A DNA stretch of 39,024 nt from Verrucomicrobiota bacterium (GTDB lineage: Bacteria; Verrucomicrobiota; Verrucomicrobiia; Limisphaerales; JADLHS01): positions 1 to 39,024 of the forward strand of contig JANXWY010000115.1 in assembly GCA_025350905.1 (NCBI GenBank), written 5' to 3'. The position numbers were made by a program, and so were the translations under genes. Positions 31,460-39,024 of this stretch are shown here, in pieces. The notes below the pieces were generated by a model. That model ran no database searches. It worked only from the letters and a program-made list of their open reading frames with translations, and was not told the DNA's origin. Every line of letters starts with the position of its first letter. Positions within the stretch are counted from its first letter, which is position 1.

Positions 31460-34400
31460 TTACGGTTGCGCCTCCACTCGGAAGAAGTTTGGCGCGCCAT
31501 TGGTCCGGGCGGGCAACGTGAATCCGGTCGAGTAGCTCGCGGCCCGCAGCCAGTCGGTGAACGGCGACCAATTGGTTGCCTGCGTGCTGCCGAACAGGCG
31601 ATAGCCATGGCCCGGAGCCGAAGGCCATTCGAGCCGGACTTGATTGCTGGCCAGCATGGTGGCCGAAATGTTGAAAGTTGCAGCGACCGCGCTTGCGGGC
31701 GGCGTCGCTTCGACGCGGAAGAATTTTGCAGCCCCATTGGTGGTCGTGCCCAGGGTGTAACTCGTGTTCGTCCCGGTGGCGGCGAACCAGTTGGAGAACG
31801 GGGACCAGGCGACGCCGTTGGTGGCAACGTGAACCCGGTAGTTATGATTGGTGACGGAAGGCCAGGAAAGTTTCACGAAATTGTTCGGGAGTTGTTGCGC
31901 GATGATTTGGAACCGGGGTGGCGGATTGTTGGGATCCGTGCCGGCGACAAATTCGGCCCAATCGCTCAAGCCGTCGCCGTCGGTGTCGGTCGTTGAGGTT
32001 CGTTGGGCCGAGAGGCTGCCGAATTGTTGCGCCTCCCAACCATCCGGAATGCCGTTGGCATTCACGTCGGGGAAAGTGTAGTTACCCGTGAACGTCACAG
32101 AACCTCCCGGCGCCAGCAGATTCGTTTGCTTGGCTGGCGTCTGATAAAATGGCACGTCGGCGTATTGGATGATGTATTGGCCGGGCGGCACCGGGCTGAG
32201 GATTTCGCTGCGTCCACCCGCCGCGCGGTTGGTCGGTCCGGTGAGCACGTAAAACGCCTGCCAGAGATTGTTGGTAATCTGCACGGTGCCGGACGAAACG
32301 TTGGTGACGGTGATGGAAACATCGTCCACCAACCAGCCCAGACGCGGCGGGGCGTCGATGGAAAACAGAAAGTAATACCAGACGATATAAACCACCTTGC
32401 CTAGGTGAGGGGTAAGATCGAGTTCAACTGGTTCCCAGCCGAAGGAACTGTCGGCTGGCAATTGCCAGAGGTCGAGGGGCGCGGTTGCGGTGTTGGTAAT
32501 GATTTGGACGGATGCGAGTTCGATGTCGCCGTCGGCGGCGCTCAGGAAATCGTAATTGTGCCAGAACCGGAGCGTGGCCTGGTTGCCGCCGGTGAGCAGG
32601 ATGCCGGGACTGACGAGATAGGTTTCGGCCTGACCGACTGTCCCCCCCGAGAGGTTCGCGCCCCAGCAATTGGTCGGCGAATGAGCGGTTTCGCCGCCGC
32701 CCGGCGCGCCGCGGGTCCACTGGGTCTCGGACTCCGGCGGCGCAATAACGGACCAATTGGCATTGTTGGTTTCGAGGTTGTCGAACCACGGGGGCGTCAT
32801 GGGCTGCAGCGTCGTGAACGAATAAAGCTTCCCACCGTTATCGTCCGTGGTGGAATTTCCCGCGCGATCCCGGCTCACGACCCGCATGTAGTAGGTGGTG
32901 CTTGGCTTCAAGCCCGCCAGGAACACCACGTGATAACTGGCCAGCGTGGGATCATAGGCGATGAAGTTATCCGGGAAACTGGCCGGTGACTCGCTGTATT
33001 GCACGAGCGCGTTCGCGGGTTCCGAAGTATCCCAACTTACCACCGCTTCGAGATAGCCCGGTTCGATGACGACGTTGGTGATTGCCGGCGCATTGGTTTC
33101 GATGAGCGCGGTGGCGAAGCGGGTCTGGCCCGCGGAGGCATCAAAGTATTCGGCTTGGATCGCGTCCTTCGCTTGCACATGGAGCGTGCCCGCCAGGGTG
33201 GTGTTGGTCGGGGTAAAAATAATGCTGCCGCGGAACAATCCGCGCCGCGCGGTTTCCAGCAGCGTGACCGGGACGCCATTGGTTTGTTGCGGGCCGCGCA
33301 CGGTGATCGTGGTATGGCCCGAATTTTGGAGATCCAGATCTTGCACTTCAACCACGGCGCGACCTGGGACGGAATAAATATCGCTGTCGAGGGCGAGGCT
33401 GCTGCTGCCGGCCACGGGCACGAGGAAGTTGAGAATGTTGTTTAGCAGCCCCGCGCGATTGTTGCCGATGCCCGAACCGAGTGGGACCGCATCGAGAGGG
33501 AACGATAGATAAACCACCCGCGCCGGCAAATCCCGGCCAATGGTGGGTGAGCGCACGCCGACTACCGAGCCATCGCTCAACAGGATGGAGGTGGCATTGG
33601 CCGTGGGCACGATCCAGTCCGACGGATCCGTCACGCCGAGGAAAGCCAGAAACGCGAGGAGGTCATCGTAGGGGGTGTAGTCGAGCACCGCATCAATGCC
33701 GGCGCCCACCGGATCCCCCGGCGCACCGGTCACGGCGTTCACCGGTTGATCTTCGGTGTAGGACTGAATCTGGAGCACGTTGGTGTTGAAACTGGCGAGT
33801 CCCGCTTCCGTGAAGCGCGTGGTGGCATCCATCGAAGCGATGAACAGCGCGCCGCCGTTCGTGACGTAATTGGCGATTTTCTGCGCCAGCGCAACGGGCG
33901 GCGGGGAAATTTCGTCCATGCGCCAGAGGATGCAACGGTAGGCTTGTAGTTGCCCGGCGGTCGGTTCGGCTCCCGTCGACGCATCGAACACGTCAAAGGC
34001 CCGCCCCACGGCGGCTAGGGCGTCGGTATAACCCGCGAGTGGCGGCGCCGCCACGAGTCCGCCGCTATCCGTGTAGGAATCCAGCAACAGTATCTCCGGC
34101 GGCTGCGTGTTGGTGATGCTAAAATAACTCCCGGTATTGTTGTTGGTTGAGCGATTGCCGGCTTCATCTTGCGCAACAACGAAATATTGCACGACCGCGT
34201 TGGCCGCCACGTTGGCGAGCGTGAATTCCTGGGTCACCTCCAGCATATGGTTGGTCCGTGCGAGATTCGGCGTCGGGGTGCCGTAATAGAGTTCCGCCCG
34301 CGCCGCTTCATCGGTAGTCCACGATACCGCAATCTGACCGAATTGATTCGTTGCGTGCACTGCTGAAATCACCGGCGGCAATAGGTCGGCGCGCGCGGTG

Positions 34401-36832
34401 AAAACGCGGTTGCTCGTCGGTTGGGAGTCCGCATAGATGGCTTCGATGACGTTGTTGTGGGCGAGCTGAAGCTGGCCATCGCTGAGCGCCGGGCCGCTGG
34501 CGGTCGCGACCGTGCCTGTAAACAAACCGCGGCTGCCGTTCGCTTGCAGCGTGATCAATTCCCCAATCGGTTCTGCGCCGCTGCGCAGGAGAACTTTGGC
34601 CGTGGGCTGACCAGCTAAATCGTAATCGACGAGCGCGAGTTTGATCTGATCGGGCGCGCGATAAACGGCGCGGTCGAAGGTGACGATGCCGGTGCCGGAT
34701 GCGCCGAACCGGCCGGAAATCACCAGCGCAAAATCCTGGTCCAACATCGCAGTGTCCCGACGAGCGTCCGCCACCACCCGGCTGCCACGAATGCGAATGA
34801 GGTATTCGCCGGGCACGGGCCGGGCGAGATGCACCGCCTCGACGTTGTTGATGGCGTCCGCCCCGTCCGCATCGGGAATGGATTCACCCGAGTCAAAGCG
34901 ATTGCCGCGGTAAATTCGGCCGCTGGGCGCGATTACTTCGAGATCCAGATCGTTGACGAGCGCAATGACGGCGGCCGGATTGCCGGGCACGTCGGTGTAG
35001 GCCAGGGTGATTTTGAGCGGTTCGCTGGCGTCCTGGATCAGAACGCGCTGCTCGTAAACGGCGTTGTTCGTTAGCAGGACGGTTTGGTCGAGGAAATTGT
35101 AGTCGCGGGTCGCGGCAATGAGCGCCGGCAGGTTCACGCGGCCCCAACCTTCGTCGTTGTTAGGAACGGGACCGGTTTCCACCGCGTTATCCATGTCGGT
35201 GGCGGAATTGATCAGCGCGGCTTTGACCAGGGCAGGGGAGGGAGTCTGGTTGCCATGCGTGGCACGGTAGAACTGCACGAACACCGCCGCCGCACCCGCC
35301 ACATGCGGCCCGGCCTGACTGGTGCCGCCTTGATAGAGATAATTGTCGGAAATGGGCCACCAGGCGTACGCGTCGTTGGCAAACACCGAGCGGAGCGACG
35401 AAATCCAACTGCCCGGGGCGACGAGGTCGGGTTTGATTCGGCCATCCTCGCACGGGCCACGGCTGGAAAAGTCCGCCATGGTGTCGGGGCCGGTGTCGTA
35501 GATTGGAAATTCCGCGAGCGGAAGATTGCGGCGGTCGTTGTTGGCTGCGCCCGTGGCGATCACATTCTTGGCCACTGCGGGGCTGCCAATGGTTCGCGTG
35601 GCCGGTCCGGCATTGCCGGCGGAAAACTCAAGGATGTAGGGCTGGTCGCCGAGGGCGAGAGCGTCGGCGTCGCGTACGAGACCATCAAATTCCATGGCGC
35701 TCAGATCGTAGCGGCCCTGGGTGTCGTCCCCCCAACTGTTCGAGCCGACGTCGGCACCGGCGCGGGTGGCGTCGCGGGTCAGAGTTTCGTAGGTCGGCGG
35801 GGCGGCATAGCCACCCACGGCGTCGAAGATTCGCTGGGCGACCAGGCTGGCGCCCGGCGCGACCCCGAGGCCGTAAAGGAAACCGCTGTCGTCGGCCTCG
35901 CCGACCGCGCCGTTACCCGCAATGATGCCGGCGCAATGCGTGCCATGGCTATGTTCGTCGGCGGCATCTGCCAATTGGCCGGGCGCACCGTAATAGAACA
36001 GCGCCTTGACGCGTCCTTGAATGTCGGGATGCATCGCATTCGTGTTGCCGCTATCGAGTCCACTATCCGCGACCGCCACGGTGACGCCGGCGCCATTGTA
36101 ACCGAGGGATTGGACGAGCGACTGATGGACCGGCCCATCCCCGCCGACGATGCGAGTGGCGACTTCATCCAACAACTGCATGGCCGGCGCGGGCTCGATC
36201 CAGAGCACGGCGTCGGAACCGGCCAACTGATTGAGTTGCGTCCGGTCGAGCCGGCCGCGCAGCACGGTGCCGAATGCGTTGGTGCTTTCTGGTTGCAGCT
36301 GGTCGAACAGCAGTTTGGTTTGCGCGCGCTCAGTCGAAGTGGCGCGAGTGGAGAGGAGAACGGCGACCGCGAGCGAATCCGGCGTCGGGAATAAACTGGC
36401 GCCGGCGCTGGGCGTATTGGTAGTCCCAGCGACGGAACGGGTCAAGGCACGGTGGATTTTGTGTTCCGGGCGATAAGGGCCGACCCAACGGACGAAGTCG
36501 AGCTGGCGGATTTGTTCGACGCGCGCGCCCTCGAATTTGGCGACGAACGCATCATCCGGAACATATTGGAGGAGTTCGACCCCACGATTCCTGAGCTCAC
36601 CGCGCGCGGCGGACGGTAACGCGCCATTGAATTGAAGCAAAAACAGCCCGGTGACCGGGCGGTCGGCTGTCGGTGCGGCGGCCACGGCGCTCCGTAATGG
36701 GGAACTGGCCGGTGTGATCGTTTCGTTCCGGAGGTGGATGGATTTCGTCGGGGCGGCGACGGCGGTGAAGCCAAAAAGGAAACCAAGCAGCAGCAAACTG
36801 CTTGGACGAATGGCAAAACAACGGGACTTCAC
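31460..36832 (-). CDS. Very large secreted subtilisin-like (S8) multidomain peptidase
   Basis: A 1790-residue exported serine peptidase. A signal peptide (SSLLLLGFLFGFTAVAA) precedes a prodomain-like region to about 225. The S8 catalytic domain has Asp256 (VAVADSGLD), His296 (HSHGTHCAGIIAGNG), oxyanion Asn407 (SAGNAGP) and Ser505 (GGTSQAGPHVAG), so the triad is complete. Further on are a P-domain-like beta region (about 590-720) and two fibronectin III-like modules (about 830-920 and 1290-1390). A GATase-like alpha/beta stretch (EILLLDSYTDSGG onward) lies between them. A MAM/jelly-roll-like domain (WFDNLETNNANW to WLVDDVSITV) follows. Then comes a calcium-type segment (DTDGDGLSDWAEFVAGTDP). 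Two C-terminal repeats end FFRVEA. The start is GTG at 36832. Domain limits are by eye. Confidence 0.92.
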   Translation of the reverse strand: MKSRCFAIRPSSLLLLGFLFGFTAVAAPTKSIHLRNETITPASSPLRSAVAAAPTADRPVTGLFLLQFNGALPSAARGELRNRGVELLQYVPDDAFVAKFEGARVEQIRQLDFVRWVGPYRPEHKIHRALTRSVAGTTNTPSAGASLFPTPDSLAVAVLLSTRATSTERAQTKLLFDQLQPESTNAFGTVLRGRLDRTQLNQLAGSDAVLWIEPAPAMQLLDEVATRIVGGDGPVHQSLVQSLGYNGAGVTVAVADSGLDSGNTNAMHPDIQGRVKALFYYGAPGQLADAADEHSHGTHCAGIIAGNGAVGEADDSGFLYGLGVAPGASLVAQRIFDAVGGYAAPPTYETLTRDATRAGADVGSNSWGDDTQGRYDLSAMEFDGLVRDADALALGDQPYILEFSAGNAGPATRTIGSPAVAKNVIATGAANNDRRNLPLAEFPIYDTGPDTMADFSSRGPCEDGRIKPDLVAPGSWISSLRSVFANDAYAWWPISDNYLYQGGTSQAGPHVAGAAAVFVQFYRATHGNQTPSPALVKAALINSATDMDNAVETGPVPNNDEGWGRVNLPALIAATRDYNFLDQTVLLTNNAVYEQRVLIQDASEPLKITLAYTDVPGNPAAVIALVNDLDLEVIAPSGRIYRGNRFDSGESIPDADGADAINNVEAVHLARPVPGEYLIRIRGSRVVADARRDTAMLDQDFALVISGRFGASGTGIVTFDRAVYRAPDQIKLALVDYDLAGQPTAKVLLRSGAEPIGELITLQANGSRGLFTGTVATASGPALSDGQLQLAHNNVIEAIYADSQPTSNRVFTARADLLPPVISAVHATNQFGQIAVSWTTDEAARAELYYGTPTPNLARTNHMLEVTQEFTLANVAANAVVQYFVVAQDEAGNRSTNNNTGSYFSITNTQPPEILLLDSYTDSGGLVAAPPLAGYTDALAAVGRAFDVFDASTGAEPTAGQLQAYRCILWRMDEISPPPVALAQKIANYVTNGGALFIASMDATTRFTEAGLASFNTNVLQIQSYTEDQPVNAVTGAPGDPVGAGIDAVLDYTPYDDLLAFLAFLGVTDPSDWIVPTANATSILLSDGSVVGVRSPTIGRDLPARVVYLSFPLDAVPLGSGIGNNRAGLLNNILNFLVPVAGSSSLALDSDIYSVPGRAVVEVQDLDLQNSGHTTITVRGPQQTNGVPVTLLETARRGLFRGSIIFTPTNTTLAGTLHVQAKDAIQAEYFDASAGQTRFATALIETNAPAITNVVIEPGYLEAVVSWDTSEPANALVQYSESPASFPDNFIAYDPTLASYHVVFLAGLKPSTTYYMRVVSRDRAGNSTTDDNGGKLYSFTTLQPMTPPWFDNLETNNANWSVIAPPESETQWTRGAPGGGETAHSPTNCWGANLSGGTVGQAETYLVSPGILLTGGNQATLRFWHNYDFLSAADGDIELASVQIITNTATAPLDLWQLPADSSFGWEPVELDLTPHLGKVVYIVWYYFLFSIDAPPRLGWLVDDVSITVTNVSSGTVQITNNLWQAFYVLTGPTNRAAGGRSEILSPVPPGQYIIQYADVPFYQTPAKQTNLLAPGGSVTFTGNYTFPDVNANGIPDGWEAQQFGSLSAQRTSTTDTDGDGLSDWAEFVAGTDPNNPPPRFQIIAQQLPNNFVKLSWPSVTNHNYRVHVATNGVAWSPFSNWFAATGTNTSYTLGTTTNGAAKFFRVEATPPASAVAATFNISATMLASNQVRLEWPSAPGHGYRLFGSTQATNWSPFTDWLRAASYSTGFTLPARTNGAPNFFRVEAQP

Positions 36833-36887: not shown

Positions 36888-37790
36888 CTACTTGACGAGT
36901 GGCCGAGTGGCGCGTTCCTGCAACCAGGCTACGTCGGGGTTGTTCGGCGAGGAGAACGAATCGTTGACATTGCCGTCTTGAACGATCGGCGGCATCGTGC
37001 GGTCGTCCCGCCAACGGTGAATTTCCGAGTGACCGTCGGCGAAGGAGAAACCGCACGCCCGGTGATGGTAGGAACCTGGCAAATCGTCAAAACCGTATAG
37101 CCAAGGTTGGTCGGGCCACCCACTCATCCTTGGCGCGAAATTTCCCACATCAATACTGTCCTCCCGCATGTCGAGGAATACGAAGGTCTGGGTCGGGCCG
37201 GGATCAATCATATCGGTGGTTTTGAGATAAACGCGCCATCTGCCGCCGCCCAACGCCCAAGGGTTGGAACTGTCTGACAATCCTTGGTCGGTGCCGCGAA
37301 ATCCACCGAGCCAAACGTTCATGGACATGCTGCGGACCCGGGGTTTGAATTCACCCTTGACCGTGACGCCGGAGCGGTCGGCGGGGCATTTCCAGATGGC
37401 GGTCGACGTGCCGCAATACCGCCAAAGCGGACTCTTTTTGATGTCCTTCTCGACGTCCCAGTTGGAGCGGTTATTGGGATCAAAATCCAAAAAGCCGCTG
37501 ACCCATACGTCCGGATCATTGGCCGTCCAAGGCCACAAGCCGCTGGCATAAAGCAGGTGGTCTTGGTTGTCGTCCGAATACATCCGCCAGGCGAGCGCCA
37601 GCTGGCGATGGTTATTCATACACGAAATCCCATGCGTCTTGAGTTTGGCTTTATTGAGGGCGGGCAACAGCAGCGCCGCGAGAATCCCGATGATCGCGAC
37701 GACGACGAGAAGTTCGATCAGAGTAAAGGCCCGCCGCCAGCGGTGGCGGAACTTCTGCGAACCAATCAGCTTTGTTGGATGAAGGCTCAT
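36888..37790 (-). CDS. Type II secretion-like pseudopilin with H-X9-DG domain (copy 1)
   Basis: A 300-residue protein with a prepilin signal: basic leader ending RHRWRRA, then [20 protein letters not shown]. Prepilin peptidase should cut between Ala21 and Phe22, leaving Glu5 of the mature protein. Near the C-terminus [13 protein letters not shown] gives the H-X9-DG motif that marks a pseudopilin group abundant in Planctomycetes, Verrucomicrobia and Lentisphaerae. These groups often encode dozens of paralogs, of unknown substrate. The start [12 protein letters not shown] places LIGS at residues 8-11 and the cleavage site at 21/22, exactly as in the second copy, which supports the choice. Between the ends the two proteins share little. 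It lies 55 bases downstream of nothing closely coupled; the S8 gene follows on the same strand. Confidence 0.9.
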
Positions 37791-37835
37791 ACGGCTTTGG
37801 AAAAACAGTCCATCCAACCCGAGCGGATTGCAAGT
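37791..37835 (-). promoter_or_regulatory. Conserved upstream block of pseudopilin copy 1
   Basis: The 45 bases before the start match those before the second pseudopilin gene (38803-38846) at about 75-80% with one indel. Shared blocks on the minus strand are ACTTGCA, GGGTTGGAT, GACT followed by a T tract, and AGCCGT directly before ATG. Coding sequence cannot explain this, so it is a candidate shared promoter or translation signal. Confidence 0.5.
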
Positions 37836-37926
37836 CGCAACGCGGGCCGTGGCAATGTGGGTCGCACGGTGATCGAGGCCATGCACAAGAACCCCGGGGC
37901 CAGACAAGCCATTCTAAATTCAATTT

Positions 37927-37968: not shown

Positions 37969-38802
37969 TCACCAGTGCTGGCGATAACCGCCCTGCATGC
38001 GGCGGTAGTCCGGTAGCTCATTCGCGCCAACCGGTTGCGGGAGACTCCCGAGATAAACTTTGGGCCCGCGCCATTTCCACCGTTCAGCATGGCCGTCCCC
38101 AAAGGACAGATTGGCGCCCTGCGCGTGGCGGTTGGCCGGAATATCCCACCAGGATTGGGTGTTGCCCCAGTATTGCTGGGATGGCATCCCAAAGGTGCAG
38201 TCGTAGATTTCGTCCTCATGGACGTCGAGAAAAACGAAGAGTTGGGCGGGGTCGGGATCGTGGATCGCGGTTAATTTTTTGAAACTCGGGTTGGACCAGC
38301 CATAGGGATCGAGTTCGGGTGCGCCGTTGATGCACAGGCTCATGTTGTAGCTGCGCCAGCGGAGTTGGTTGAGGGTGACTGCGGCGGGCGTGGTAATGCG
38401 GGCCCGGTCGGCGGGACAGTGATAGATGTTCAGCGAGGAATTGTAAGGGAAGAGCAGGCCGTTGATGATGCCTGCGGGATCCACATCGTACACGTAATTG
38501 CTGCACCAGGAGGCGGCACTGGCCGTGGGACCGCCCCCAATCAGCGCGATGGAATTGTTCGGCGGCAACAAGTCTGCGTGGTCGAGCGCATAAAGATGCC
38601 AGCACACGGAGAGCTGCTTGACATTGTTCAGGCAGGCGATCGTGTGCGCCCGGGCCTTGGCTTGGTTCAACGCCGGCAACAGCAGGGCGGCCAAAATCGC
38701 AATGATAGCGATGACAACGAGCAATTCGATGAGCGTAAACGCGCTCCGCCTTCGCGGGGGGAACTCGCGTGAACCAATCAGCATGAGGAGTTGCGGGCGC
38801 AT
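37969..38802 (-). CDS. Type II secretion-like pseudopilin with H-X9-DG domain (copy 2)
   Basis: A 277-residue protein starting [14 protein letters not shown] with the prepilin sequence [20 protein letters not shown]; cleavage is expected between Ala21 and Phe22. The H-X9-DG motif is [13 protein letters not shown] near the C-terminus. Four conserved-looking cysteines lie in the globular part ([28 protein letters not shown]). The CPAD-R block is shared with copy 1 ([10 protein letters not shown]) and is common in this group. ATG codons at 38784 and 38802 are both possible; the second keeps the leader the same length as in copy 1. Its upstream 45 bases are also like those of copy 1. Product is probably an exported minor pilin or surface-structure subunit. 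Confidence 0.9.
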
Positions 38803-38846
38803 ACGGCTCGGGAAAATAGTCGATCCAACCCCCGTGCAATGCAAGT
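38803..38846 (-). promoter_or_regulatory. Conserved upstream block of pseudopilin copy 2
   Basis: Partner of the block at 37791-37835, differing by one base in the length of the T tract and about ten substitutions. In both, TTGCA(A/T) and GACT(G/A)T are 17 bases apart, the spacing of a sigma-70 promoter, though the hexamers are poor matches. Confidence 0.5.
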
Positions 38847-38864
38847 GACAAGGCAGGGGGTGCG

Positions 38865-39024
38865 ACTAGAAGTGGCGGTCAACCCGGGTGGTAGGAGTGT
38901 TCGCGCTGCGAACACTCCGCCCGCGCAGAGCGGGCGGAACGTGCGGTGACTCGGACGTGCCGCTGGACGCGGCACGACGGCTCGCAGCGCGAGCCGTTCT
39001 ACCACACTGACCGCCACTTCCAGT
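38865..39024. repeat. Nested multi-hairpin palindromic element
   Basis: 160 bases enclosed by a 17-base inverted repeat with one mismatch (38865-38881 with 39008-39024; core GAAGTGGCGGTCA). Inside it GTGGTAG (38888-38894) pairs with CTACCAC (38999-39005). Within that loop are four perfect hairpins: 11 pairs (38894-38904 with 38908-38918, loop GCT), 8 pairs (38917-38924 with 38930-38937), 8 pairs (38956-38963 with 38969-38976) and 9 pairs (38977-38985 with 38989-38997, loop AGC). The right end coincides with the window edge, so the element may extend further. It encodes no protein that can be supported and lies upstream of the pseudopilin genes. It could be a non-autonomous mobile element, a structured RNA or a protein-binding palindrome cluster. 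Confidence 0.8.

Follow-up and report, generated by a model that had tools for sequence, protein, structure and literature searches.

Part of the ISKra4 group of insertion sequences (IS) is known to insert with sigma-A promoters ~16 bp from the inverted repeat (IR), and the IRs of this group are 18-39 bp long with a terminal C and are accompanied by duplications of 8-9 bp (Guerillot et al. 2014, PMC3942029). Verrucomicrobia, as exemplified by Opitutus terrae, are in turn already known as rich in GTAG REPs (PMC3733652). A 2024 review of prokaryotic MITEs (PMC10969869) makes no mention of ISKra4, BIME or RAYT, and the literature that we searched, mostly outside subscription papers, contained no report of ISKra4 MITEs. 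Here we describe an element from a Verrucomicrobiota bacterium (assembly GCA_025350905.1) that occupies the end of the window, by which we mean the whole analyzed stretch of 39,024 nucleotides (positions 1 to 39,024 of JANXWY010000115.1, contig C3 among the 489 contigs of this genome). We propose with considerable confidence that it is a non-autonomous, promoter-directed MITE that depends for its movement on an ISKra4-like DDE transposase of the Mutator type acting in trans, and that holds a captured REP dimer inside. The features of the element and its immediate surroundings are as follows:

38858..39024, + strand: first 167 bases of the 174-bp MITE, the last 7 (CGCACCC) lying beyond the contig end; at least 40 copies
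38858..38881, + strand: left terminal inverted repeat GGGTGCGACTAGAAGTGGCGGTCA, the promoter-proximal end; exact pattern match, shared with the 1443-1444-bp IS
39008..39024, - strand: right terminal inverted repeat, 17 of 24 bases; complete in other copies
38888..38894, + strand: left arm of the inner inverted repeat, GTGGTAG, which holds the GTAG tag of REP unit 1 (38891-38894); from sequence and copy alignment
38999..39005, - strand: right arm of the inner inverted repeat, CTACCAC, which holds the GTAG tag of REP unit 2 (38999-39002); from sequence and copy alignment
38891..38938, + strand: REP unit 1, comprising GTAG, hairpin A (38894-38918, loop GCT) and hairpin B (38917-38937); covariance model R1, 64.8 bits, E 6.5e-11, and unit covariation
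38955..39002, - strand: REP unit 2, inverted, comprising GTAG, hairpin A' (38977-38997, loop AGC on the + strand) and hairpin B' (38956-38976); covariance model R1, 61.4 bits, E 3.8e-10
38939..38954, no strand: spacer separating both REP units; from sequence, unpaired in the fold
38813..38857, - strand: target-side flank, with TATTTT (38818-38813) at the -10 position of the family and a poor -35 match (38841-38836)
37969..38844, - strand: pseudopilin-like gene downstream of the element; Pfam PF07963 N_methyl, 35.4 bits

Folding of positions 38850-39024 as single-strand DNA gives -67.1 kcal/mol (z = -8.4 versus dinucleotide shuffles, with 0 of 200 shuffles as stable). This bears out the near-complete folding that had been claimed from an earlier sequence-only reading of the locus, every named part of which is found: the 7-base pair set, the four hairpins, and the 3-base loops GCT and AGC in the first and fourth of them, which are complementary because they belong to two inverted occurrences of one kind of unit. 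The outer repeat described there as 17 bases (38865-38881 versus 39008-39024) is indeed complementary at 16 of 17 positions; the full terminal repeat is 24 bp long, and just its inner portion appears here because the contig stops 7 bp short of the end of the right repeat. Hence, the element starts not at 38865, as had been read, but at 38858. Two of the identities suggested for this stretch are both right, each for a different layer of the element. 'MITE-like' describes the whole, which is bounded by terminal repeats, duplicates 9 bp of its target, is present in many copies and has an autonomous counterpart in relatives. 'REP/BIME-type' describes the core, which is made of two convergent GTAG-tagged double-hairpin units that are also found without terminal repeats, but not the whole element with its target duplications and DDE-IS ends.

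At least 40 copies of the element with 92-100% identity are present in the genome (40 of 115 candidates having been scored), and its end sequence has 113 genomic matches with at most 3 mismatches versus 2 with the reversed sequence as control. A complete copy measures 174 bp, with 24-bp terminal inverted repeats (TIRs; GGGTGYGAYYRRAAGTGGCGGTC plus one base) that end in CCC. The target-site duplications are 9 bp long and form perfect direct repeats on both sides of 14 complete copies (e.g. AAACAAAAC, TGTCGAGCC and TTTGGCGGA); in the remaining copies they match at 8/9 positions or are decayed, and many copies have decayed ends or duplications. The evidence for the 9-bp duplication comes from these other copies, the right flank of the window copy lying beyond the contig end. 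Numerous other contigs likewise begin or stop within the element, since repeats interrupt assembly. Such 9-bp duplications are the mark of a DDE-type transposon. A length of 174 bp leaves no room for a transposase gene, and the element is non-coding. It is, in short, a MITE: short, TIR-bounded, lacking a transposase gene, target-duplicating, and with ends common to an autonomous element of relatives. The sequence-only reading had allowed that the stretch might be a local palindrome cluster; the further copies, homologs in relatives, compensatory stem changes and target-site duplications for which it suggested looking are all present. An exact match to the end sequences is present in 14 of 293 genomes from the order and in 33 stretches from a scan of 84,980 species (with the element's own genome possibly left out), all of them in Verrucomicrobiota-titled records, while no match to the element was found in annotated phages and plasmids and no TIR in viral contigs.

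Some loci show these or related ends in unusual arrangements. In L132:1104-1158 (G002:C7), two ends in opposite direction stand back to back with 9 bp between them, as though one element had landed at the very edge of another. In L172:1451-1737 (DNDP01000354.1, UBA12295), an element of 287 bp bounded by these ends has a 9-bp duplication, GGGTGCGAC, that is the TIR start itself, making it an insertion into the end of another copy. L075 (G000:C102) has, at about locus positions 2001-2150, a short element whose ends are related to these but which contains GATTAAGA/GATTACGA-type repeats in place of REP hairpins.

Autonomous IS of ~1.43-1.45 kb are seen in relatives. Those with ends identical to those of the MITE include one of 1444 bp in G008 and one of 1443 bp in JAJVHY010000004.1, the latter with a perfect 9-bp duplication (CTCACGCGG). 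A genome of the same genus has a 1430-bp IS with somewhat different ends, and further IS in relatives combine related ends with 9-bp duplications. The best model match of the transposase encoded by the G008 IS is the ISKra4 transposase (4.8e-42); its score of 144.5 bits is under the curated NCBIfam ISKra4 cut-off of 205, and we therefore name it 'ISKra4-like'. An alignment places its DDE triad, with two invariant D residues and the E of a GSGxIE motif in every sequence covering that position, and of 196 genomes from the order, 58 have a related protein. A search for an intact transposase in the fragmented genome of the window returned only a C-terminal remnant. One contig end (C433) has four bases inside the end repeat, AGAT, that agree with the IS but with neither end of the 174-bp MITE, a weak hint that an IS copy may have stayed unassembled in this genome. 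We infer that an ISKra4-like transposase is the mover of these copies; it would bind the 24-bp ends, move the 174-bp unit and make the 9-bp target duplication.

The left flanks of 38 distinct copies, read outward from the left end and scored for TTGACA/TATAAT (maximum 12), show a sharp peak at offset 17, with a mean of 5.74 versus a background of 3.32 (standard error 0.23). A -35-like hexamer thus starts 17 bp outside the left end in the MITE family. Scores of at least 7/12 at offsets 16-18 are reached by 20 of the 38 left flanks versus 4.2% of background positions, about half of the left flanks being without a clear promoter score. The right end has a weak peak (6/36), and a promoter is present on at least one side in 19 of the 27 copies with both flanks. 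Concomitantly, 70% of left flanks have an ATG 48-75 bp out versus 32% of background, with no excess on the right side. Offset 17 is also the best for both ends of the 227-bp MITEs that share these ends, and for the left end of the 174-bp MITEs of G006. Among ten autonomous IS inspected, a promoter at the same offset is clear at the 5' end of a well-preserved IS (L165) and at the 3' end of another (L139), and the remaining ones have no clear one there. In 49 flanks of TIR-less REP units there is no promoter signal at any offset and no signal of ATG position; therefore the ends, not the hairpins, account for the placement. Insertion would be steered to sites upstream of sigma-70-type promoters, about 16 bp from the -35 box, with a particular end pointing to the promoter in most cases.

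In the window copy, a strict promoter scan of the flank found none; the ATG of the probable pseudopilin gene is at 38802, 56 bp from the element. The neighborhood further includes a 1790-aa subtilase (31460-36832, - strand) with a purple-acid-phosphatase N-domain and a TSP3 repeat, which adjoins two genes with prepilin N-methylation motifs (36888-37907 and 37969-38844, both on the - strand). As regards the host, insertion upstream of promoters is likely to limit gene damage, and stems next to a promoter may fold in read-through transcripts, possibly shielding the promoter from upstream transcription.

The interior of the element consists of two convergent units, each with GTAG, a hairpin A with the apex CGC-GCY-GCG and a hairpin B. 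In an alignment (A1) of 32 distinct units that come from several genera and for the most part lack TIRs, 96.7% of cells are paired, a figure inflated by the choice of members partly for having stems, and 112 cells changed on both sides versus 32.4 in shuffles. The covariation score of the unit is 0.621 versus 0.144 in shuffles, a signal that is destroyed by shifting the pairing by one base. Units picked solely by the 5' half of hairpin A are fully paired in 25 of 31 cases, though many have one common stem. The REP unit is preserved by compensatory changes. Its covariance model has at least 150 matches in the genome, and about 65 of the 150 listed, as counted by reading of the list, are outside MITEs. 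TIR-less elements with the same layout, including dimers, are found both in this genome and in relatives; one from G001, of the same genus, has a hairpin A identical to the hairpin A of REP unit 2 in the window.

The stable fold, the covariation of the unit and the non-random position upstream of promoters might equally be expected if the stems had been kept for a structured-RNA or transcription-terminator role next to genes, their mobility being incidental. We regard this as unlikely. A search of Rfam returned nothing at threshold, merely weak miRNA/sRNA look-alikes of the kind that long palindromes give, and the 'structured RNA' entertained by the sequence-only reading has no positive support; likewise, the window element has no intrinsic terminator and no terminator tail. 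MITEs with other cores have the same position and TIR-less units do not, so the transposase accounts for the position. Compensatory changes are few among the near-identical MITE copies (e.g. L023 and L034), and they can be produced by copying between the arms of a palindrome, which makes them weak evidence for a functional fold.

The same ends enclose several other interiors, in elements of 227 bp (own genome), 213 bp (G001), 223 bp (KTt_bin-1485), 281 bp and 196 bp (G017 group) and 287 bp (UBA12295). Compared with shuffles, the 174-, 213-, 196- and 287-bp elements fold far better (z -6 to -9), the 227-bp and one 281-bp element moderately better, and the 223-bp element weakly better, whereas the folding of a 158-bp, a 251-bp and the other 281-bp element is no better than that of shuffles. 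As unfolded interiors exist, REP-like cores are recurrent or common, not universal or obligatory. The 227-bp core is another REP type (GTAGCGTCAGGC...GCCTGACGTAGAGGG), and dimers of this type lie to either side of a RAYT gene in contig C377. At that locus (L110, G000:C377:185-3421), the RAYT (Y1_Tnp) gene lies between near-identical REP dimers at locus positions 1275-1441 and 2147-2313, in a REPtron-like unit.

The four-hairpin interior of the window element would accordingly be read as a captured REP dimer (BIME), which probably came to lie between the IS ends, as opposed to the TIR-less copies having lost theirs; we favor this order because TIR-less units are more widespread and diverse. The reverse, in which the 174-bp MITE is ancestral and TIR-less dimers are MITE copies after end loss, could draw on the similar cores with and without TIRs within one genus and on the decay of ends or duplications in many MITE copies. 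It strikes us as improbable, since TIR-less units occur in many genera without these TIRs, are more diverse than the MITE cores and have no promoter-linked position, and since differing cores lie between identical TIRs. As for the composite origin itself, IS ends may have captured dimers, or a RAYT may have put dimers into short palindromic MITEs.

That the whole element is a REP/BIME (REPIN-like) mobilized on the folded single strand by a RAYT (TnpA-REP), with outer repeats that are a mere part of the palindrome, would accord with the GTAG tags and hairpins, with the 16 Y1_Tnp matches in the genome and with the RAYT gene bracketed by dimers of another type, but it is hardly tenable and was rejected on the 9-bp target duplications, which contradict it, and on the ends common to a DDE insertion sequence, and no RAYT among the ten loci inspected in this genome or those inspected in eight related genomes is closely flanked by the unit type of the window. 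In G053, REPs are abundant without RAYT, with 111 pattern matches to this unit type and zero Y1_Tnp matches.

Returning to the MITE with a captured REP dimer, the element joins two kinds of repeat that are usually treated apart, the RAYT-linked REP/BIME palindromes and the DDE-type MITEs. We tentatively suggest, as something rather less than an even prospect, that Mutator-type (p-MULT) MITEs of Verrucomicrobiota repeatedly load REP dimers, as a bacterial counterpart of Pack-MULEs, and that their insertion at a set distance upstream of promoters makes dispersed REP hairpins into promoter-proximal modules, so that REPs are spread by a DDE transposase independently of RAYT. If such uptake were true, a second route of dispersal would be open to REPs, and the REP dimers within long palindromes that were reported in 2013 may represent the same phenomenon in other phyla. 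The element also offers a natural experiment on promoter insulation, with dozens of folded, near-identical copies placed at a single set distance from various promoters.

Among described systems, the element resembles the ISKra4 group (p-MULT 4) of the Mutator superfamily (PMC3942029) in its long IRs ending in C, its 9-bp duplications and a -35 box ~16 bp from the end, and the related IS that share its ends code for an ISKra4-like transposase. It departs from that group in being gene-less, 174 bp long and built around a REP dimer, and in having a partner transposase below the curated cut-off. With plant Pack-MULEs (cited in PMC3942029) it shares a non-autonomous, Mutator-type nature, varied captured interiors and insertion near gene starts, but its cargo is REP palindromes, not gene fragments, and the capture is putative. 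From the side of the REPs, GTAG REPs and BIMEs (PMC3733652) are likewise found at many sites, with GTAG outside a perfect hairpin and an inverted pair with the tags outside (HH dimer); here, however, each unit has a second hairpin, and the dimer lies within IS ends and moves with 9-bp duplications. REPINs and RAYTs (PMC3116915) are similar in that two inverted REPs form a higher-order hairpin and are non-autonomous, whereas the window element has DDE-type ends and duplications, and no RAYT was found beside this unit type. In Anabaena variabilis and Halothiobacillus neapolitanus, too, many copies of a REP dimer lie within a long palindrome (PMC3733652, section 7); the palindromes are given there without identification, unlike the present case with its IS ends, duplications and promoter targeting. 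Thus, each layer of the element is already known, and their combination has one near precedent, the REP dimers in unexplained long palindromes (PMC3733652).
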